From the NCBI RefSeq assembly GCF_003751225.1, contig NZ_RJKE01000001.1, positions 3,100,001-3,164,000 of the forward strand: DNA of 64,000 nt, in the 5' to 3' direction. Under the pieces are notes generated by a model. It ran no database searches. It had not been told where the DNA came from and saw only the letters and a program-made list of their open reading frames with translations. Position numbers and translations under genes: made by a program. Shown here piece by piece: positions 5,237 to 61,282 of this stretch (its first letter is position 1; the number at the start of each line of letters is the position of its first letter). Source of the stretch: Actinocorallia herbida (GTDB lineage Bacteria; Actinomycetota; Actinomycetes; Streptosporangiales; Streptosporangiaceae).

Positions 5237-7183
5237 TCACTGGTAGAGGGCCACCGACTTGACTTCTTGGGCGTTGAGCGCGCGGTTCCAGACCTGGACG
5301 TCGCTGATGAGGCCGGGGAAGAAGTCGGCGGGGTTGCCGTTCCACTTCCCCCGGCCGAGGACGAGCGGGCCCGTGGCGCTCCAGGGGTTCGCGACGGCCA
5401 CGGGGGTGCCTTCCGCGGTGCCGTTGACGTAGAGCCGGAGCGTGGTGTCGGCGGCGTTGTAGACGCCGGTGAGGTGGGTCCAGGCGGCGGTGGGCGTGGT
5501 CGTGCCGTAGGTGCCCGTGTTGTTGGTGGGGTTGGCGATGTCGGCGCTCATCCGGTTGAAGCCCCAGGCGTTGAGGCTGCCGCTGTACTGGAGGTAGAAG
5601 CCGCTCTGCTGGGCACCGTCCTGGCTGACCGCGGTCTTGTTGCCGGTGAGGGGCACGCCGGGCAGCTTGACCCGGGCCGAGACGGTGAAGCTCTGCCCGG
5701 TGTTGACCACCGGACCGGTGCCGGTGGCGCAGGACTGGGCGCCGCTGAACTCCGCGACGGTGCCGCGGACCGCGTCCGGGGTCCAGGTCACACCGGACGC
5801 GCAGGCGGCGTGGTTGGCGTTACGGGAGAAGTCCTTGGCCGTGGTGCCCGTGCCGTCCGTGAGCCTCCAGTGGTTGGTCGGGCCCGCGGGCACGCTCCAC
5901 GCCTGGCCGAGGGCGGGGCCGCATGGCTGGATCTCCAGCTGGGCGCCGGTGGCGGGGACCTGGAGGCACTTGCCGCTGGCGGAGTGGTAGAGCTGGGCCA
6001 TCTTGACGCTGCCCGACTGCGCGCCCATCTCGACCCGCCACTGCTGGGTCAGGTCGTTGGGCACGCAGGCCCTTGCCTCGGCCTTGCTGCCGGGGGCGGT
6101 CGCGGGAACGGTCAGGCAGGAGCCGAAGGCGCGGATGGTGCCGTCGGTGGCGAGCGTCCAGGTCTGGGGCTGGGTGCCGTTGCAGGTGTACTGCTGGATG
6201 ACGGTGCCGTCCGGCGGGTTGCTCTGGGCGACGTCGACGCACTTGTCGTTGTGGTTGGTGATGGCGCCGACGGCGTTCACCTTGGGCGCGGTCTGCTGGT
6301 ACACCCGGACGTAGTCGATGTACATCTGGGCGGGGAAGGGCGTGGTCTCGTCCGGCGGGCCCGGCCAGTCGCCGCCCACGGCGAGGTTGAGGATCAGATA
6401 GAAGTCCTCGACCAGAGGCCACTGCTTGCCCAGCGACTCCACCTGCGCGCGGTAGATGGTGTGGTAGGAGACACCGTCGATGGAGTAGTTGATGTGGTCG
6501 GGATACCAGTCGGCGGCGAAGAGGTGGTAGGCGTCGGAGAAGTTCCCGCTCGCCAGCGTGTAGGTGCTCGTCAGGTGCAGGTCGTCGGTGCCGTGCAGGG
6601 CGCTGTGCGCCTTGCCGGCCTCGCCGTTCGCGTTCCCGATCTGCTCCATGATGTCCATCTCGTTGACCAGGGTCCCGGTGCCCTTGCCCCAGAACGCCGG
6701 CCACAGGCCCTTGCCCGCCGGAACCTTGATGTTCGCCTCGAACCGGCCGGCCTGCTGCGAGAACTTCTGATAGGTGTCGAGCCTGGCCGAGGTCGCGGCG
6801 CAGACCGTCGCGCTCTCCTGGTTCGGGCAGCGCAGGTTCGGGTCGGTGTTCTCGTACGCGGTGATCACCAGATGCCCGTTGCCGTCGAGTGAGGCGTGCT
6901 TCTGCGCGGCGTTGTCCGGGTCGTTCAACTTCACATAGCGCTCAAGCTCGTTGTTGCCCACCCCGCCCTCATAAAATCGCCATTTACTCGAGTTCGGCAG
7001 CGTCCCCGCCGTTCCCGCGAACTCATCCGACCAGGTCAACTCCCAGGTGGACGGTCCACTGGACCTGCTCTCCGTCCAGGTCACCACCGCCCCCGCCCCG
7101 GATCCGACCAGGACGGCCCCGCTAACGCCCATGCACACGGCCACGACGGCTCTTATCAGCCGCCCGGTGAAACCCCGGATCAT
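5237..7183 (-). CDS. Secreted GH16 beta-glucanase with ricin-type lectin and LamG-like modules
   Basis: A 648-residue exported enzyme that should cleave beta-1,3 or mixed-linkage glucan outside the cell. Order: Sec signal peptide (1-32, MIRGFTGRLIRAVVAVC then a small-residue AxA-like end); GH16 domain (about 45-298) with the catalytic signature EMDIME giving Glu175 (nucleophile), Asp177 and Glu180 (acid/base); a ricin-B beta-trefoil (about 303-432) with repeated CLxV and QxW elements; and a C-terminal LamG/concanavalin-like domain (about 435-648). ATG 7183 is preferred over 7261 because AAAGGGA lies just upstream and because the longer form would translate an operator-like palindrome (7248-7271). 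A 9-bp-stem hairpin lies past the stop. The two C-terminal modules probably target it to polysaccharide. Confidence 0.93.
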   Translation of the reverse strand: MIRGFTGRLIRAVVAVCMGVSGAVLVGSGAGAVVTWTESRSSGPSTWELTWSDEFAGTAGTLPNSSKWRFYEGGVGNNELERYVKLNDPDNAAQKHASLDGNGHLVITAYENTDPNLRCPNQESATVCAATSARLDTYQKFSQQAGRFEANIKVPAGKGLWPAFWGKGTGTLVNEMDIMEQIGNANGEAGKAHSALHGTDDLHLTSTYTLASGNFSDAYHLFAADWYPDHINYSIDGVSYHTIYRAQVESLGKQWPLVEDFYLILNLAVGGDWPGPPDETTPFPAQMYIDYVRVYQQTAPKVNAVGAITNHNDKCVDVAQSNPPDGTVIQQYTCNGTQPQTWTLATDGTIRAFGSCLTVPATAPGSKAEARACVPNDLTQQWRVEMGAQSGSVKMAQLYHSASGKCLQVPATGAQLEIQPCGPALGQAWSVPAGPTNHWRLTDGTGTTAKDFSRNANHAACASGVTWTPDAVRGTVAEFSGAQSCATGTGPVVNTGQSFTVSARVKLPGVPLTGNKTAVSQDGAQQSGFYLQYSGSLNAWGFNRMSADIANPTNNTGTYGTTTPTAAWTHLTGVYNAADTTLRLYVNGTAEGTPVAVANPWSATGPLVLGRGKWNGNPADFFPGLISDVQVWNRALNAQEVKSVALYQ

Positions 7184-7247
7184 CTGCGCTGTTTCCCTTT
7201 CTGGTGATCCCGCGGAACGGGATCGAAGGAAGGCCGATAATTGCATT

Positions 7248-7271
7248 AGTCGACATTTCATAATGTCGACT
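7248..7271. promoter_or_regulatory. Perfect 10-bp inverted repeat, candidate operator
   Basis: Arms AGTCGACATT (7248-7257) and AATGTCGACT (7262-7271) are perfect complements around a TCAT spacer. The site sits almost in the middle of the 148-bp divergent gap, 64 bp from the GH16 start and 60 bp from the kelch lipoprotein start, in an AT-rich patch. It does not match the CebR/LacI-type sites usual for actinomycete glycosidases, so the regulator is unknown and no regulator gene is adjacent. Confidence 0.65.
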
Positions 7272-7331
7272 CGATGATCTTAAACATGGGCTCGGTGCAA
7301 CGTGGGGGTGGGGCAGGGGCGTCTTGGAGGT

Positions 7332-8489
7332 ATGACACTTCGTGGTTCGGGGGCGGCGGGCTGCGCGCTTCTCTTCGCGGTCGGTTGCGCCGGGGCGGTG
7401 CCGAGGGCGGGTGACGTGCCGGTACCGCCGACCCGGGCGGCGGGAACGGTGCGGGTGCTGCCGGGGGCGCCGGTCCCCGGCCGGTCGTGGAGCGGGGCGG
7501 TCTGGACGGGTCGGGAGATGGTCGTCTGGGGTGGGGTGACGGAGCGGGAGGAGACGGACGGGAAGAAGGTGCGAACCGTCGTGGAGGAGCGGGCGGACGG
7601 GGCGGCCTACGATCCGGCGACGGATCGGTGGCGGGTGCTCCCGGTCGCGCCGCTGTCCGGGCGGGAGCGGCCGGTGATGGTGTGGACGGGGGAGCGGGTG
7701 CTGGTGGTCGGCGGGCGGGTGCGGCGGCGCACGGACGGGGTTCGGGACGGGGCGGCTTATGACCCGGTGGCCGATTCCTGGGAGGTGCTGCCCGGCGCGC
7801 CCGAGCCGCCGTCGGAGCATGTGGTGTGGACGGGGGAGGAGGCCGTGTTCGTGTCGGAGCTCGGCGGGGTCGCCTACCATCCGGGGCGGAGGACCTGGCG
7901 GACGCTGGCCGGCGGGCCGGGGCTGGAGTGGGTGGAACAGCTCGTCTGGACGGGGTCGGAGGTGATCGTCCTCGGGTCGGACGGAGGGGAGGAACTCGCC
8001 GGGGCGGCCTACGACCCGGGGGCCGACCGGTGGCGGGAACTGCCGGAACCGGGCGTCTCCTCGTCGTCCGGGCGGGTGGCGGTATGGAGTTCCGGCAAGG
8101 TTCTCGTGGTTTCGCCGTCTTCGGAGCGGGTCGACGGGGGTGAGGTGGACCCCTTTCCGAAGCCGCTCGATCCCGGTGGAGTCTACGATCCGGCGACGGA
8201 TCGGTGGTCGGCGCTGCCGCTCGCGCCCGCCGGGCTGGGGGCGACCTACCGAGGGGCGCTCACGCCGAGGGGCGTGCTGTTCTGGGACGGCGGGCCTACC
8301 GTCGCGCGCTTCGATCCCGCCACCGCGCGCTGGAGCAGCCAGCCCGTGCCCGGTCGGCCCGGCCGGTCCTTCGGCGTCCTGATCTGGACGGGTGCCGAAC
8401 TCGTCGTCTGGGGCGGCGACGGGTGCCCGCCGCTCGCGGACTGCGTTCGCCTGGTCCCTCCCCCCGAGGCCATCGCCCTCACTCCTTGA
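7332..8489 (+). CDS. Kelch-repeat beta-propeller lipoprotein
   Basis: A 385-residue predicted surface lipoprotein. A short signal peptide ends in a lipobox (FAVGC, Cys at about residue 18). The body is built of about six kelch-like repeats, each with a WTGREMVVWGG-type strand pair followed by AAYDPATDRWRVLP. Such propellers bind proteins or glycans; no enzymatic residue set is evident. ATG 7332 follows GGAGGT directly. The gene is divergent from the GH16 gene with a shared palindrome between them, which suggests co-regulation. Its last 11 bases overlap the end of the convergent pentapeptide gene. Confidence 0.85.
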   Translation: MTLRGSGAAGCALLFAVGCAGAVPRAGDVPVPPTRAAGTVRVLPGAPVPGRSWSGAVWTGREMVVWGGVTEREETDGKKVRTVVEERADGAAYDPATDRWRVLPVAPLSGRERPVMVWTGERVLVVGGRVRRRTDGVRDGAAYDPVADSWEVLPGAPEPPSEHVVWTGEEAVFVSELGGVAYHPGRRTWRTLAGGPGLEWVEQLVWTGSEVIVLGSDGGEELAGAAYDPGADRWRELPEPGVSSSSGRVAVWSSGKVLVVSPSSERVDGGEVDPFPKPLDPGGVYDPATDRWSALPLAPAGLGATYRGALTPRGVLFWDGGPTVARFDPATARWSSQPVPGRPGRSFGVLIWTGAELVVWGGDGCPPLADCVRLVPPPEAIALTP

Positions 8490-51917: not shown

Positions 51918-52670
51918 TCACTGGTACCGGATCGGGGCGAACGGGGCGAACGCCACGGGGTCGAGGGGGCCGACCACCTTCGGCGTGTTCGCGCTGGACC
52001 TGAGCTGCCACGTCAGGGAGACGAGTTCGCGGACGGGAAGGTCGACGACCGGGCAGCCGGGCAGCTCCCGCAGGACGAGATCGCCCTCGACGCGCTCGAT
52101 CGCGTGCGGCGTCCGGGTCTGCTCGACGACGATCAGCAGCGGATCCCCGTCGAAGCCGGCCCCGGAGACCGATGGCGAGAACTTGATCCAGAACTGCCGG
52201 GCCGGATAGGGCGCCGGAGTCGGGAGTTCCCCGGTGACCCGTCCGGACATCTCGAGGAAGGCGACGCCCTGCCGGGTGACCGTGCCCGCGACGTCGGCGC
52301 CGTTCCGGGTGAGCGTGAGGTCCGCGAGCTTCTTCGGCTCGCCGAACCGCTCCCGGCTGATCGCGATCGCCGGTTCCAGGTCGATCGGGATGAGCAGCGG
52401 GTACTCGCCGGGCTCCCCGTCCAGCTCGGCCTCGACCGCGAAGTAGCCGACGAGCTCCTTGTGCCGGTGGGTCCCGAAGCCGAGGTCGATGTCGGTGATC
52501 CGGACGTGGACCCGGGGTTCGGCGGGCGGCTTCAGCGGGGGCGGCAGGACCTCGGCTAGGGCCGCGGGGTCCGTGAGGTAGACGGCCTCCAGGGAGGGCA
52601 GCGGGGGCAGCCCGTCCGTCAGGCTCGCGGTCGGCTCGCTCGGGGGCTGGACCCAGCGGGTCAGGCTCAT
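51918..52670 (-). CDS. Acetoacetate decarboxylase-family protein
   Basis: A 250-residue protein with the ADC fold. The family motif that carries the Schiff-base Lys is present as RERFGEPKKLAD (Lys113/114), together with VGYFAVEAELDGEPGEYPLLI and the end REL.SLTWQL. Most actinobacterial members act on larger keto acids or lack decarboxylase activity, so the reaction is open. ATG (52668-52670) overlaps the stop of the Rieske gene (ATGA). It is second of the operon. Confidence 0.83.
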   Translation of the reverse strand: MSLTRWVQPPSEPTASLTDGLPPLPSLEAVYLTDPAALAEVLPPPLKPPAEPRVHVRITDIDLGFGTHRHKELVGYFAVEAELDGEPGEYPLLIPIDLEPAIAISRERFGEPKKLADLTLTRNGADVAGTVTRQGVAFLEMSGRVTGELPTPAPYPARQFWIKFSPSVSGAGFDGDPLLIVVEQTRTPHAIERVEGDLVLRELPGCPVVDLPVRELVSLTWQLRSSANTPKVVGPLDPVAFAPFAPIRYQ

Positions 52671-53749
52671 CGCGTCTCCTGCTCTGCGTCGACCGGCCGA
52701 GCGTCGACCGGCTTCGAATAGAACTGCGCGGACCAGCGGCGGTGCTCGCTGATGTCCTTCTCCATGGGCCGCAGCACGGGCGGGTCGCGATAGACCTTGT
52801 TCTCCCAGATCGGGATGTCCTGGCTCAGCCCGGTGCAGAACATCTCGGCGGCCTGCTCGGCCGCGTCCTCCCCGCTGCCGCGCGGTGCGGTGAAGATCCA
52901 TCTGACGTGCACGGTGTCCTCGTCCAGCGGGGTCGTGCTCGACAGGAACGTGGTCAGGCCCCGCACCCGAAGAACGCCGAGGCCGAGCCCGAACCCTTCG
53001 CGGACGAACGCCCCGCCTTGCCCGACGGCCCGCTTGTAGGCGCCGTCCACGTGGAACTCCTCCTCCGGGACGGCGTCGGTGCCGTGTACGAACTTGAAGT
53101 GCGCCCGGTCCACGTTGTTCTCCGCCATCTCCTGGCAGCAGGTGGCGAGCTGGAACTCGCGGACGGCGATCGGCAGCCAGTCCGGATCGTGGAACTCCGG
53201 CACCTCGGGCACGTCGTAGAACGGCGCGCCGCCTTCGAGGTGGTGCCAGGCCCAGATCATGTGGTTCCGCTCGAGCGTCGGATACGCCCGCATGGCGGCG
53301 CGCTGGGGGATGTGGTCGACGTCGTCGTAAGGCACCTCGACGCACTCGCCGGTGGCACCGTGGAACTTCCAGCCGTGGAACGGGCAGCGGATGCACGAGT
53401 CCTCGACCTGCCCGCCGACGGCGAGATGCGCGCCGAGGTGGGAGCAGTGCGCGTCGAGGAGCCGCGCCGCGCCGTCCAGCCCGCGGAACAGGACGAGTTC
53501 GCGCCCGAAGCAGTACAGCGGCACCACGTCGCCGGGCGCGAGATCGGCCGACGCGGCGACGATGAACCAGCCGTTCGGGACGGGAAAGGGGAAGCGGCCG
53601 CGGGACTCCTTGAGCACCCGCGGCCTGCGCTCGGGCTCGAACAGCAGGCGCGGATCCCCCGGCATGGGCAGGCCGGGGAGGTTGCGCGGCGGTGGCGGTT
53701 CCGGAGGGGAGAGGAGTTCGGTTGGCGGGGTGGTCACCTGCGACCTCAT
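52667..53749 (-). CDS. Rieske non-haem iron oxygenase (KshA/ring-hydroxylating type)
   Basis: A 360-residue oxygenase. The [2Fe-2S] Rieske ligands are Cys102-His104 (HCSHLGAH) and Cys122-His125 (RCPFHGW). The mononuclear iron site is ENNVDRAHFKFVHG (Asp214, His217, His222). The spacing and NGWFIVAASADLAPGDVV start resemble KshA and cholesterol-7-desaturase relatives, so a steroid or terpenoid ring is a reasonable guess. The reductase partner is not encoded here. The stop overlaps the ADC-like gene. The upstream 80 bp is AT-rich and holds promoter-like sequence. Confidence 0.88.
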   Translation of the reverse strand: MRSQVTTPPTELLSPPEPPPPRNLPGLPMPGDPRLLFEPERRPRVLKESRGRFPFPVPNGWFIVAASADLAPGDVVPLYCFGRELVLFRGLDGAARLLDAHCSHLGAHLAVGGQVEDSCIRCPFHGWKFHGATGECVEVPYDDVDHIPQRAAMRAYPTLERNHMIWAWHHLEGGAPFYDVPEVPEFHDPDWLPIAVREFQLATCCQEMAENNVDRAHFKFVHGTDAVPEEEFHVDGAYKRAVGQGGAFVREGFGLGLGVLRVRGLTTFLSSTTPLDEDTVHVRWIFTAPRGSGEDAAEQAAEMFCTGLSQDIPIWENKVYRDPPVLRPMEKDISEHRRWSAQFYSKPVDARPVDAEQETR

Positions 53750-55706: not shown

Positions 55707-56327
55707 TCAGCCCGACGCGAACTGGCACACCGTGGACACGGTGACGGTGATCTGCGCCCCTCCCGCGAGCGACAGGACGTTGTACTGCCAGCGGCTCCCG
55801 TTGTTCGAGTCCCCCAGCAGATAGGGAACTCCCATGCCCGTGTACGTCATGGTCCCGTTGACGGGGTAGTAGTCGTCCGGGCACTCGCCCCCCTGGACGA
55901 TGGCGCTGGCGCCGGCGGCGATGTTGGTCGGCTGCGCCGGAGGCACGATCACCGGCGGGAGCGTGGGCCCGGCGACCCCTTGTTCCCCGGGCAGGCCCTG
56001 CGGGCCCCGATCCCCCGGGAGCCCTTGCGGGCCGCGATCGCCCGTCAGCCCCTGCGGGCCGCGCGGGCCTTGTTCGCCCTGTGGCCCTGCGGGTCCCCGA
56101 GGCCCGGTGGCGCCTTCCGGCCCGGCCGGCCCGCGCGGTCCACGCGGGCCGCGCGGGCCGCGGGGACCCGGGCAGCGGTCGTTGTCGAAGTCGTCGTCGA
56201 GGTTCGTCACGGTGGCGGGCCAGGGGCACGGGGTGCCTTCCGGGGCGCGCGCCTCGGCGGTGCCCGTCAGGGCGGTGGTGATGGCGAGAGCGGCAAGGGA
56301 AGCGCCCGCCGTCCTAGTGATGATCAT
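55707..56327 (-). CDS. Secreted collagen-like protein
   Basis: A 206-residue exported protein. Signal peptide [25 protein letters not shown] (cleaved near 26), a short acidic head ([12 protein letters not shown]), then Gly-X-Y repeats over about 50-115 ([32 protein letters not shown]). A globular tail (about 120-206) has three Cys and [37 protein letters not shown]. Collagen triple helix is likely; the tail may trimerise. Bacterial collagen-like proteins are often surface or spore structures. ATG 56327 fits the signal peptide. Confidence 0.85.
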
Positions 56328-56442
56328 GCACGGATCATCACCGCGTCCATGATCACTCAATCCGGGATGGCCCAGACACACCCGCTCCCTTCCAACATTT
56401 GACGATCTTCCGCACCGCGGTTCCGCGACACGCCCGACGGGG

Positions 56443-58074: not shown

Positions 58075-58309
58075 TCGCCGCCTCCTGCGCCACGGGTCTC
58101 CGTCGCGACGACACTGTCACATTCCGAAGTGCATCACTCACTAAGAGTGCTGGTGTGTTCTCGAGTGCGGGTGGTGACGGTGAAAAGTGGCAAAGATGGC
58201 TTTTGGTGCGTTTATCGCCGGGCATGGTCCGCATGTCCGAGGAACGCATACGACGGGGTGATCCCGACCGGTCTGCGGCGGGATCTCACCGGCTGAGGGG
58301 TCGCGCGGC
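58075..58309. promoter_or_regulatory. Divergent gap ctaD / YbdK-like ligase
   Basis: A 235-bp gap with a local AT-rich part (58120-58220). CACTC (58135-58139) and GAGTG (58145-58149) form a small inverted repeat around ACTAA near the ctaD start. No regulator gene adjoins. Confidence 0.35.
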
Positions 58310-59440
58310 ATGGCCGACCGTCCGGTCTGCACGGTAGGAGTCGAGGAGGAGTTCCTCCTGGTCGATCCGGAGAGCGGGGAGACGCGGGGGCGGGGGCCCG
58401 AGGTGCTCGCCGCAGTGGCCGACCACGGGCCGCGACCGCCCGGCGGATTCCACGCTGAGCTCCAGGCGACCCAGGTCGAGTCGGCCACCGAGGTGCACAC
58501 CCGGCTCACCGACCTGAGGCGCGATCTCGTGCGCGGCAGGGGCATGCTCGCCGACGCGGCCCGCGCGAAGGGCCTCGTGCTGATCAGTTCGGGGACGCCG
58601 GTGGCCCCTTCGCCGGATCCGCCGGTGGCGCCCGGTGAGCGCTTCTCCGTGGCCCGGCGCGCCTTCGCCGACGTCACCCGGCGCTATGAGGTGTGCGGCT
58701 GCCACGTCCACGTCGGGGTGCCCGACCGGGACACCGCGGTGGCCGTCGTCGGCCATCTCCGCCCGTGGCTGCCGACGCTCCTCGCGCTGTCGGTGAACTC
58801 GCCGTACGACCGGGGCAGGGACTCGGGATACGCGAGCTGGCGGATGATCGAGCAGGCACGCTTCCCCGGTGGGGGCGCGCCGCCCTGCTTCCGCTCGGCG
58901 GCGGAGCACGACAGGGCGGTCGACCGGCTCGTCGCGTGCGGCATTCTCATCGACGCGGGGATGACCTTCTGGACCGCCCGGCCTTCCCCGCGCTACCCGA
59001 CGGTCGAGGTCCGGGCCGCGGACGCCTGCGGCACCGTCGACGAGGCGGTCCTGCAGGCGGCGCTGGCCAGGGCATTGGTCGCCACGGCCCTCGCCGAACT
59101 CGCCGCGGGACGGGAGGCGGTCCCCGTCGACCCGCAGATCTGCGCGGCGGGCCAGTGGAACGCCGCGCGCCACGGGCTCGCCGGCGCCGCCGTGGATCCG
59201 GTCGAGGGAAGGCTGGTGCCGGCTCGGACGCGGGTCTCGGCGCTCCTCACCGCGGTCCGTCCGGCCCTGGAGGAGGCAGGGGACTTCAAGGAGACCGATC
59301 GGCTGCTGCGGCGCGTCCTGGACCGAGGCACCGGCGCGGAACGGCAGCGCAACGCGGGTGCGGCGGGGATCCCCGCCGTGCTGAGGATGCTCGCCGAACA
59401 GACGAGCCAGAAGGAGACCGAGGACGAGGGGGAGACATGA
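58310..59440 (+). CDS. YbdK/EgtA-like carboxylate-amine ligase (GCS2 family)
   Basis: A 376-residue ATP-dependent ligase of the glutamate-cysteine ligase type 2 family. The N-terminus TVGVEEEFLLVDPESGETRGRGPEVL holds the metal-binding Glu cluster; QATQVESAT, CGCHVHVGVPD and TFWTARPSPRYPTVEVRAADAC are family signatures. YbdK members join glutamate-like carboxylates to amines but are usually far weaker than GshA. The stop overlaps the start of the haem-oxygenase-fold gene (ATGA), so both act in one pathway. Substrates are unknown. Confidence 0.88.
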   Translation: MADRPVCTVGVEEEFLLVDPESGETRGRGPEVLAAVADHGPRPPGGFHAELQATQVESATEVHTRLTDLRRDLVRGRGMLADAARAKGLVLISSGTPVAPSPDPPVAPGERFSVARRAFADVTRRYEVCGCHVHVGVPDRDTAVAVVGHLRPWLPTLLALSVNSPYDRGRDSGYASWRMIEQARFPGGGAPPCFRSAAEHDRAVDRLVACGILIDAGMTFWTARPSPRYPTVEVRAADACGTVDEAVLQAALARALVATALAELAAGREAVPVDPQICAAGQWNAARHGLAGAAVDPVEGRLVPARTRVSALLTAVRPALEEAGDFKETDRLLRRVLDRGTGAERQRNAGAAGIPAVLRMLAEQTSQKETEDEGET

Positions 59441-60447
59441 CCTCGACACCGGTGAGGCCGGACCGCACGCACGGCTCCGCGCGCCTGCCCGCACCACGCG
59501 GACCGCTCTCCGCGGCGGTCGTCACGACGCTCGGCGCACCGCCGGGGACGGCGCCGCCGTCCGTGCCGCGCGTCGCCGACCCGCTGGGAGAGGACGCGCA
59601 GCTCGCCCTGTACACCTGTTACGAGCTGCATTATCGCGGTTTCGCCGGGGTGGATCCCGAGTGGGAGTGGGATGTCGGCCTGCTCGGATTGCGCCGGACG
59701 CTGGAGCGCGGCTTCCTCGACGCGTTGCGCGGGAACGTCCCGGACGGCGTGGACGTCGAGGCCGCGCTCGCGCCATTGCTCGTGGTGGATCCGGCGGCGC
59801 GCGGGCCGTCCCATCACCTCGCGCGGGAGGGTTCGTGGCGGGAGCTGCGCGAGTTCCTCGTCCACCGCTCGGCCTACCACCTCAAGGAGGCGGACCCGCA
59901 CGCGTTCGTGATCCCGCGCCTGGAAGGCCAGGCCAAGGCGTCCCTGGTGGCGGTGGAGTACGACGAGTACGGGGGCGGCCGGGCCGCGCGCGTGCACGCC
60001 CGCCTGTTCGCCGACCTCATGGAGGCGACCGGCCTGGACGGCTCTTACCTGCGTTATCTCGACCTGGTCCCCGCGGTCTCCCTGGCGATCGTGAACATGA
60101 TGTCCCTGTTCGGCCTGCACCGGGCGCTGCGCGGCGCGATGGTCGGCCACTTCGCCGCGGCCGAGATCTCCACCCCGCCCAGCGCCCGGCGCATGGCCGC
60201 CGCCCTCGCCCGCCTCGGCGCCGACGAGCGGGCGCTGGTGTTCTACACCGAGCACATCGAGGCCGACGCCGTCCACGAACAGGTGCTCAGGCACGACGTC
60301 ATCGGAGACCTGCTGGCGCGGGAGCCGGACCTCGCGGGCGACGTCGTCTTCGGCATCGGGGCCACCGAGTGGCTGGAGGACCGGCTGGGCGCCCATCTGC
60401 TGGACCGATGGCGGGAGGGGGAGTGCTCACTCCTCGCGCCGCCGTGA
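59437..60447 (+). CDS. Haem-oxygenase-fold iron-containing redox enzyme (HDO-like)
   Basis: A 336-residue protein of the iron-containing redox enzyme class, haem-oxygenase-like with a non-haem metal site. Candidate ligands follow the HDO pattern: Glu151/His155 (LKEADPH), Glu174 and His187 (VAVEYDEYGGGRAARVH), then His273-x3-Asp277-x2-His280 (HIEADAVH). Characterised relatives (UndA, BesC, SznF) desaturate, cleave or N-oxygenate amines and fatty acids. The N-terminal 50 residues are disordered. Coupling to the ligase gene and the facing CDGSH gene suggest oxidative tailoring of a small amide; that is inference. Confidence 0.82.
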   Translation: MTSTPVRPDRTHGSARLPAPRGPLSAAVVTTLGAPPGTAPPSVPRVADPLGEDAQLALYTCYELHYRGFAGVDPEWEWDVGLLGLRRTLERGFLDALRGNVPDGVDVEAALAPLLVVDPAARGPSHHLAREGSWRELREFLVHRSAYHLKEADPHAFVIPRLEGQAKASLVAVEYDEYGGGRAARVHARLFADLMEATGLDGSYLRYLDLVPAVSLAIVNMMSLFGLHRALRGAMVGHFAAAEISTPPSARRMAAALARLGADERALVFYTEHIEADAVHEQVLRHDVIGDLLAREPDLAGDVVFGIGATEWLEDRLGAHLLDRWREGECSLLAPP

Positions 60448-60645
60448 CGGGCGGGCCCGCCGGTGGCTGGTGTCGCAGAGCGGATAGATGCGGCTGCGAT
60501 GGCACTGGCAGATCGCGACCACGAACCTGTCGCAGACGACCTCGGTGCCGTCGGGCAGCACGATCTCCACCGGGCCCTCGATCAGCAGCGGCCCGCGCGG
60601 GACGATCCTGACCCGGCGGCGCGGCCGGTCACCGGCGCTCGGCAC
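60427..60645 (-). CDS. CDGSH iron-sulfur domain protein
   Basis: A 72-residue protein with a single CDGSH motif. The [2Fe-2S] ligands are Cys46, Cys48, Cys57 and His61 in ICQCHRSRIYPLCDTSH, with Thr in place of Gly-Ser in CDTSH, a known variant. It could carry electrons to a redox partner. It faces the haem-oxygenase-fold gene with 21 bp overlap at the 3' ends and overlaps the end of the methyltransferase gene upstream (17 bp), so it is coupled with that gene. GTG 60645. Confidence 0.83.
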   Translation of the reverse strand: MPSAGDRPRRRVRIVPRGPLLIEGPVEIVLPDGTEVVCDRFVVAICQCHRSRIYPLCDTSHRRARPSRRREE

Positions 60646-61282
60646 GGATCACCACAAGGTCGTCGCGGTCCTGCCCCGGCTCGATGAGCCCGCGGGCGAG
60701 GAGATCGGAGGTCCTGGGCCCGATGATCGGACCGAACCGCTCGGGCTCGCGGTGCACGACCGCCGCGCGCAGGCCCGCGGCGCGGAGCGCGGCCAGGGTC
60801 CGGCCGACGCCGCAGAGGTCGGAGTGGACCAGGAGCAGGACGCCTCCCGGCGTGAGGAGGTCGGCGGCCCCGGCGCAGATGCGGTCCACCGCGGCGCGTC
60901 CGTCCGGACCCGCGTCCCAGGCAAGGGCCCTGCCGTGCCTGCGCGGACGCCCGCGGGCGCGCGGCACGTAGGGCGGGTTCGCGGTGATGAGGTCGAAGCG
61001 CTCACCGGTGACGGGCGCGAACAGGTCGCCGCACCGCACCCGCACCCGGAGTCGTCGGAGAAAGCCGTTCAGCGCCGCGCAGAGCACCGCCCTGCGCGAG
61101 ATGTCGACGGCGGTCACCCGGGCCGCCCCGCGCCGCGCCGCGGCGATCGCCACCCGCCCGGTCCCGGTGCACAGGTCCAGCGCCCGCGCGCCCGGCGGCA
61201 TGGCGACCTCGCCCACGGCCCGGCACAGGATCCAGGTGTCCCGGCGCGGCCGGTAGACCCCAGGCAGCCGGACAAGCCTCAT
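60629..61282 (-). CDS. HemK/PrmC-like N-methyltransferase
   Basis: A 217-residue SAM-dependent methyltransferase. Motif I is LDLCTGTGRVAIAAARRGA (35-53) and the catalytic NPPYVP is at 102-107. That motif marks methylation of amide nitrogen in Gln or of exocyclic amines (PrmC/HemK2 group). The PrmC helical N-domain is missing, as in Mtq2/HemK2-type proteins. ATG 61282 follows a run of decayed transporter sequence. It overlaps the CDGSH gene, so a common transcript is likely. Confidence 0.82.
   Translation of the reverse strand: MRLVRLPGVYRPRRDTWILCRAVGEVAMPPGARALDLCTGTGRVAIAAARRGAARVTAVDISRRAVLCAALNGFLRRLRVRVRCGDLFAPVTGERFDLITANPPYVPRARGRPRRHGRALAWDAGPDGRAAVDRICAGAADLLTPGGVLLLVHSDLCGVGRTLAALRAAGLRAAVVHREPERFGPIIGPRTSDLLARGLIEPGQDRDDLVVIRAERR

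Follow-up and report, generated by a model that had tools for sequence, protein, structure and literature searches.

Four adjacent genes near the end of a 64,000-nucleotide stretch of the Actinocorallia herbida genome (contig NZ_RJKE01000001.1, positions 3,100,001 to 3,164,000; the whole stretch is called the window) behaved as a conserved functional unit, a conclusion supported by their linkage in related genomes. The unit encoded a haem-oxygenase-like diiron oxidase/oxygenase (HDO), a CDGSH-type [2Fe-2S] protein, an S-adenosylmethionine (SAM) methyltransferase (MT), and a carboxylate-amine ligase of the GCS2/YbdK type. Its core was the pair of HDO and CDGSH, the MT was common, and the ligase was optional. 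By alignment, the HDO has the complete 3H/4C ligand set of SznF, and the reading favoured here, with a probability of roughly 0.45, is a general-stress module that oxidises a nitrogen-containing small molecule. An earlier note on this DNA had proposed a four-part pathway; the conserved unit was upheld by linkage and co-occurrence and the metal site by its seven ligands, whereas the small-molecule chemistry is still hypothetical.

The seven predicted metal ligands of the HDO (E151, E177, H187, E243, H273, D277, and H280) all aligned with the HDO region of SznF, from the SznE/SznF pair of streptozotocin, and were present in 140 of the 141 HDOs compared. The earlier note had made its proposal depend on the core metal-ligand set (Glu/His, Glu/His, HxxxDxxH), and alignment with known HDOs showed it to be complete. 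SznF E189, the counterpart of E151, is presumably the extra carboxylate ligand of the 3H/4C set, which comes from an auxiliary helix outside the core helices. In SznF, exchange of any one of E215, H225, E281, H311, D315, and H318 for alanine abolished activity (PMC11705231), and the 3H/4C class, first seen in SznF, is estimated to make up roughly one quarter of HDOs (PMC13108848). The exceptional copy, in locus L165 (genome G487, 7104–8066), retained only D277, had no partner gene within 3 kb, and is perhaps a non-catalytic descendant.

Profile comparison with solved proteins placed SznF (E = 7e-15), RohS (2e-14), and HrmI (7e-13) closest to the window HDO, with BesC at 0.19. An AlphaFold2 model (predicted local distance difference test, pLDDT, 92; predicted template-modelling score, pTM, 0.90) gave the same neighbours in Foldseek. 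Ranks 1–18 were HrmI, SznF, and RohS chains (TM by query 0.63–0.72), followed by FlcD, 3bjd, and CADD, and later by BesC, PolF, and UndA. The 30 Protein Data Bank matches at E ≤ 0.001 were chains of HrmI, SznF, RohS, FlcD, and CADD, together with 3bjd, which carries the label of a putative synthase. UndA, BesC, and SznF had been named beforehand as relatives. SznF was borne out by profile and fold, whereas UndA and BesC (fold ranks 45 and 38) were rejected as the closest model, RohS and HrmI being closer. No cupin or other second domain was found in the HDO by Pfam, and only the HDO region of SznF aligned with it. Because its fold and ligands match SznF-like N-oxygenases, the HDO is predicted to be an N-oxygenase. 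Residues R144, R161, and R229, near-invariant in 139, 140, and 139 of the 141 copies, are candidate carboxylate-binding residues.

Linkage was counted in two samples. The first comprised 80 named loci, the top-scoring 80 among at least 576 matches, and was biased towards near relatives. The second comprised 60 regions from 58 of the 62 genomes that matched the HDO query at E ≤ 1e-30 among 396 genomes sampled evenly across the phylum; the window genome, G123, G160 and G476 with broken HDOs, and the second copy of G130 are absent from it. The two HDOs of locus L142 were counted once, and the four-family profiles used for the scans were trained on the 80 named loci. By profile scan, a CDGSH gene lay within 3 kb of the HDO gene in 79/80 named and 39/60 phylum loci, an MT gene in 72/80 and 22/60, and a YbdK-type ligase gene in 32/80 and 6/60; all four genes were found within that distance in 30/80 and 4/60. 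Farther out, in 747 kb of flank from the named loci and 593 kb from the phylum loci (140 loci in all), the profiles matched no CDGSH gene, one MT gene, and four ligase genes.

Each sample showed 12 multi-gene arrangements. Some repeated the facing pairs of the window, others read HDO-MT-CDGSH, all co-directional, or MT-CDGSH-HDO, and remote families carried ligase-HDO-CDGSH with a divergent MT. Genes and starts were called by an in-house codon-based script, which makes the overlap counts approximate; the genes were tightly packed, with overlaps in 20 of the 38 HDO/CDGSH pairs that face each other and in 18 of the 44 MT-CDGSH pairs. No fusion among the four proteins was found in the window and loci L036–L175. 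The earlier note had staked its case on a four-gene neighbourhood beyond close relatives, and the linkage did extend through named and phylum loci in many gene orders. It had also paired the ligase with the HDO; the two genes do overlap in the window, but the most constant pair in relatives was HDO and CDGSH.

Genome-wide co-occurrence was scored in 149 relatives, with all score limits chosen after the scores were seen. The HDO query matched 68 of them, 57 at E ≤ 1e-45. CDGSH of the module type occurred in 51 of these 57 genomes versus 3 of the 92 others, the MT in 21 of 26 genomes with a close HDO versus 1 of 123, and the ligase sub-type in 14 of 26 versus 0 of 123 (p values from 3e-29 to 6e-13). 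The lone MT was adjacent to a CDGSH gene in L201 (genome G085, 1903–2833), and no HDO was found in that genome. Overlapping open reading frames are common in high-GC actinomycetes, and the four genes could in principle be chance neighbours in a compact genome. This explanation is refuted by the linkage in 79/80 and 39/60 loci, the shuffled gene orders, and the co-occurrence, and its probability is negligible. The A. herbida genome itself, a single contig of 9.8 Mb, held five GCS2 matches, four HDO-family matches, and three CDGSH domains in two places, and the distant flank of about 1.34 Mb was free of CDGSH matches.

The ligase was not tied to one lineage. In genomes G027, G034, and G083, a ligase encoded away from the HDO nevertheless fell within the HDO-linked clade (36 rows, support 100/96), as did the second copy of G051. 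The HDO was paired with a different, deep GCS2 clade in the remote loci L131, L144, L147, L149, and L168, and with a third clade in L127 (genome G300). Such repeated recruitment from several sub-families argues that the ligase reaction matters, while the absence of a ligase near the HDO in most loci indicates that the module can do without it, use a substitute, or have it encoded at another site. Two successive ligase genes of different GCS2 sub-families lay 5' of the HDO gene in the Amycolatopsis loci L073, L082, L094, and L095.

The module was also present on actinomycete replicons listed as plasmids, where it was annotated as 'iron-containing redox enzyme', 'CDGSH', and 'HemK2/MTQ2', with 'YbdK' in one of three regions viewed; a search of plasmid records with the window CDGSH protein served annotation only. 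A two-gene unit of HDO and CDGSH was carried by the 62-kb Curtobacterium plasmid pW21 (L205, 5968–7277). On a Kitasatospora sp. NBC_00039 plasmid (L204, 3884–7942), genes for ligase, dimethylargininase, HDO, CDGSH, and MT stood in one locus, adjoining annotated SpoIIE phosphatase, ATP-binding, STAS, and CsbD genes. The dimethylargininase gene, between ligase and HDO and found in L204 only, hints at a methyl-arginine-type substrate.

Within the window, the two gene pairs overlapped as the earlier note had claimed, by 4 bp between ligase and HDO and by 17 bp between CDGSH and MT, with the HDO and CDGSH genes overlapping by 21 bp at their 3' ends. The features are listed in Table 1.

Table 1. Positions of the module genes, predicted HDO metal ligands, and promoter candidate in the window.
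Feature	Position	Strand	Description
GCS2/YbdK-type carboxylate-amine ligase	58310..59440	+	376 aa; Pfam GCS2 147.8 bits (cut-off 21)
Haem-oxygenase-like diiron oxidase/oxygenase (HDO)	59437..60447	+	336 aa; Haem_oxygenas_2 PF14518 194.9 bits (cut-off 28.9); predicted 3H/4C metal site
CDGSH-type [2Fe-2S] protein	60427..60645	-	72 aa, GTG start; zf-CDGSH PF09360 59.1 bits (cut-off 29.5)
HemK2/MTQ2-type SAM methyltransferase (MT)	60629..61282	-	217 aa; Pfam MTS 50.6 bits (cut-off 23)
HDO E151	59887..59889	+	aligns with SznF E189
HDO E177	59965..59967	+	aligns with SznF E215
HDO H187	59995..59997	+	aligns with SznF H225
HDO E243	60163..60165	+	aligns with SznF E281
HDO H273xxxD277xxH280	60253..60276	+	aligns with SznF H311, D315, H318
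Weak SigF/SigB-like promoter candidate GCTT-N17-GGGCA	58199..58224	+	loose-pattern match, ~111 nt 5' of ligase gene

The ligase exceeded the cut-offs of NCBIfam YbdK TIGR02050 (231.8 versus 176.4) and PRK13517.1-1 (371.9 versus 332), fell below those of the equivalogs PRK13515.1 and PRK13516.1, and had E. coli YbdK (1r8g) as its nearest solved structure (E = 2.4e-23). The cluster ligands of the CDGSH protein, a CDTSH variant, were C46, C48, C57, and H61 (C-x-C-x8-C-x3-H), and each of them was retained by 118 of the 119 module copies. The same genome has another CDGSH gene (G000:C1:3085367-3085996; L180, L181), located some 14 kb ahead of the window, in which one long frame of about 615 aa contained two CDGSH domains. 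The MT had been labelled PrmC-like, a name that did not hold. It was well under the PrmC cut-off (TIGR03534, 96.4 versus 199.1) but over that of HemK2/MTQ2 (TIGR00537, 95.4 versus 87), so HemK2/MTQ2-like is the better name. Its NPPY motif (N102–Y105) was unchanged in all 95 module copies. Anti-phage defence was considered and rejected: among PADLOC models, ligase, HDO, and CDGSH had no match, and the MT matched only two methyltransferase models, covering mads_2 in part at 80.7 bits and scoring 15.2 with a type II MTase.

In a protein-modification explanation, the MT would methylate a protein side chain, possibly of the HDO or CDGSH, and the HDO would oxidise a protein in the manner of CADD. 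The match to TIGR00537 and the N6AMT1/HemK2 structures, the nearest solved relatives (E = 3e-12), are in its favour, as is the placement of MT and CDGSH on one strand wherever both were present in the named loci (72/72) and in 18 of 20 such phylum loci. Known YbdK-type ligases, on the other hand, make small amides, and no candidate protein substrate outside the module recurred as strongly among the 45 listed neighbour families. We regard this explanation as quite unlikely, even with the precedent of CADD, which sacrifices its own tyrosine (PMC13108848).

Those neighbour families were counted within 2.5 kb and named from Pfam and NCBIfam for 20 proteins and otherwise by eye. A family without a Pfam match occurred at 14 loci (the HDO family itself at 137), FAD/Rieske oxidoreductases at 13, zinc alcohol dehydrogenases at 12, NADPH-dependent FMN reductases at 11, short-chain dehydrogenases/reductases and hemerythrins at 9 each, sigma-70 factors at 8, and DUF4383 proteins at 7; glycosyltransferases were found at 9 loci, all of the phylum sample. 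Mn-catalase, UsfY, and CsbD genes also lay near some loci. These surroundings resemble those of general stress genes more than an antibiotic cluster of any recognisable kind. That the module is a conventional secondary-metabolite cluster, varying between strains, is very unlikely: no NRPS or PKS was recognised among the listed families (by eye, 10 checked by Pfam), and the module was spread over many families, partly amid stress genes. This idea derives some appeal from the HDOs of known function, mostly natural-product enzymes (PMC13108848), and from a C39-peptidase ABC transporter, of a type used for peptide export, within 2.5 kb in five loci.

For the loci taken together, promoters of the SigF/SigB type also pointed to a stress setting. 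The pattern GTTT-N14-17-GGG[TA]A was sought in 260-base windows whose placement differed a little, following the profile match start for module genes and the predicted start for control genes. The controls were the remaining leaders of these loci at distances above 4 kb. The pattern was found 5' of 45/217 module leaders versus 33/514 other leaders (Fisher 4e-8), and its reversed form in 0/217 module leaders. The corresponding counts were 14/33 versus 7/70 in mycobacteria and 31/184 versus 26/444 outside them. An earlier count over all genes gave 25/141 for the HDO and 2/119 for CDGSH, which is mostly operon-internal.

A probable mycobacterial counterpart gave this setting a link to published expression data. 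Locus L122 contained lat (L-lysine 6-transaminase, over cut-off), a PAS/ANTAR gene, an FMN reductase, UsfY (over cut-off), and a CsbD-like gene, then MT-CDGSH facing HDO; L110 and L091 had the same order, the UsfY of L110 scoring 98.4, just below the cut-off of 100. In M. smegmatis, lat is MSMEG_1764 and UsfY is MSMEG_1769 (PMC5445863), followed by 1770, 1771 ('methylase, putative'), 1772 on the 1771 promoter, and 1773 on its own promoter (PMC4694148). From synteny, MSMEG_1771–1773 are probably the MT-CDGSH/HDO copies, and these three genes are strongly SigF-dependent in published data: the log2 changes in a sigF deletion were -6.17/-5.69, -5.91/-6.43, and -5.98/-4.09 for 1771, 1772, and 1773, respectively, and -5.48/-3.09 for the 'carboxylate-amine ligase' MSMEG_5590 (PMC4694148), which serves as a SigF-regulon marker (PMC8049324). 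The MSMEG_1773 protein was reported to be raised, together with Dps, in a pafBC mutant (PMC5656591), and a study on spray-drying lists all three genes in its expression tables (PMC5445863). A copy beside hemerythrin and Mn-catalase (MSMEG_6212/6213-like) was rejected as the counterpart, since the lat-UsfY-CsbD locus fits better in order and promoter forms.

The same observations would suit protection without a special metabolite. In this alternative, the HDO protects drying or oxidatively stressed cells by removing O2 or peroxide or by sequestering iron, CDGSH is its reductant, and the ligase and MT are auxiliary stress enzymes (e.g. for thiol supply or protein modification). DtpC of Acinetobacter, an HDO that limits peroxide, allows survival of drying and needs its HDO ligands (PMC13232832), and M. 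smegmatis sigF mutants are sensitive to H2O2 (PMC4694148). The SigF-type promoters and the catalase and hemerythrin genes near mycobacterial loci agree with it as well. It leaves unexplained why the ligase sub-type and the MT track the HDO, and the modelled HDO was nearest to N-oxygenases, DtpC being known here by description only. We consider it unlikely, though a serious contender.

Under the favoured reading of a nitrogen-oxidising stress module, the ligase would join a glutamate-like carboxylate to an amine, as its family suggests, to yield an amide, and the MT may place a methyl group on the nitrogen that is to be oxygenated, or on its precursor, the part that SznE plays for SznF. The HDO would then bind O2 at its diferrous site and N-oxygenate the ligase-made amine or amide; in loci without a ligase it would act on another nitrogen substrate. 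CDGSH is the predicted electron donor that would re-reduce the diiron site and may itself receive electrons from the FMN reductase encoded near some loci; this role fits its being the most constant partner and has a precedent in MboA/MboB. By binding metals or scavenging oxidants, for instance, the product may help cells to survive stationary phase, drying, or oxidative stress. A more specific version is rather doubtful: a core-physiology stress pathway, widespread in actinobacteria, in which a mitoNEET-like CDGSH is the dedicated donor of an N-oxygenase, ligase and MT supply the substrate, and the product is a protective metabolite oxygenated at nitrogen (N-hydroxy, nitroso, or of a related type), not an antibiotic.

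Several points weigh against the favoured reading. HemK2/MTQ2 enzymes of known function methylate proteins. The HDO stood alone in 19/60 phylum loci, and no ligase was near it in 48/80 named and 54/60 phylum loci. The single HDO lacking six of the seven ligands, in L165, was also one without partners. The link from 3H/4C to N-oxygenation rests on few examples, and HrmI, a 3H/3C enzyme, also N-oxygenates. The promoter pattern was not in excess in the remote loci L129–L168 (4/46 versus 8/147, p 0.31), and the window held no strict match, only the weak form in Table 1, which alone is without significance. The assignment of MSMEG_1771–1773 follows from synteny and the form of the promoters, not from sequence; a search of the scanned loci for the exact published promoter sequences gave no match, nor did a search of 297 genomes of the genus for one of them. 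Finally, and against CDGSH as the donor, the HDOs examined to date work without the kind of protein effector on which ferritin-like oxygenases depend (PMC13108848).

Two further loci of the window lay outside the module. A collagen-like Gly-X-Y repeat protein (Pfam Collagen) was encoded at 55707–56381 (-), and a Rieske oxygenase with a KshA-like C-terminal domain at 52667–53665 (-), adjoining acetoacetate-decarboxylase-like and amidohydrolase genes.

Characterised HDOs are mostly natural-product enzymes, whereas the module HDO appears to be part of the stress physiology of many actinobacteria and has a nearly fixed iron-sulfur partner. The module makes the role of bacterial CDGSH proteins and the substrates of many 3H/4C HDOs testable, and it offers a hypothesis for strongly SigF-dependent mycobacterial genes tabled as 'conserved hypothetical' or 'methylase, putative' (PMC4694148). 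The parts belong to known families. Literature searches, which left most subscription journals outside their coverage, found no published description of the module, and its combination and stress setting are new to the searchable literature.

Among known systems, DtpC shares an HDO in a stress setting, and its E143/H153 pair, likened by description and not by sequence, has the same E-x9-H spacing as E177/H187. It differs in its operon with katE, and the accessible text describes no CDGSH, MT, or ligase (PMC13232832). RohS and HrmI, closest to the window HDO together with SznF, have no CDGSH or GCS2 partners described in the accessible parts of the literature examined, and HrmI has a 3H/3C set versus the 3H/4C set of the window HDO (PMC13108848). 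The M. smegmatis genes resemble the module as an MT-CDGSH unit facing HDO, by gene order and promoter form, but the SigF-dependent ligase is encoded elsewhere in that genome. In the SznE/SznF system, the arginine-guanidino methyltransferase SznE works with SznF on N-methyl-arginine (PMC11705231). Compared with it, the window HDO lacks the C-terminal cupin that in SznF performs the rearrangement to N-nitroso (336 aa versus chains of 471–491), the MT is of the HemK2/MTQ2 type, a CDGSH protein and a YbdK-type ligase are added, and the context is stress. The mangotoxin cluster differs in that its HDO, MboA, is a desaturase with a 3H/3C site, the redox partner MboB is a reductase containing flavin and Fe2S2, and the cluster was found via ATP-grasp ligases, not GCS2, with no HemK2-type MT described in the accessible text (PMC13185094). 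Nevertheless, MboA needs its partner MboB and is encoded beside the amino-acid ligases MboC and MboD (PMC13185094), so that an HDO, a dedicated Fe2S2 redox partner, and amino-acid ligases stand together there, comparable to the HDO, the predicted donor CDGSH, and the GCS2 ligase of the window.

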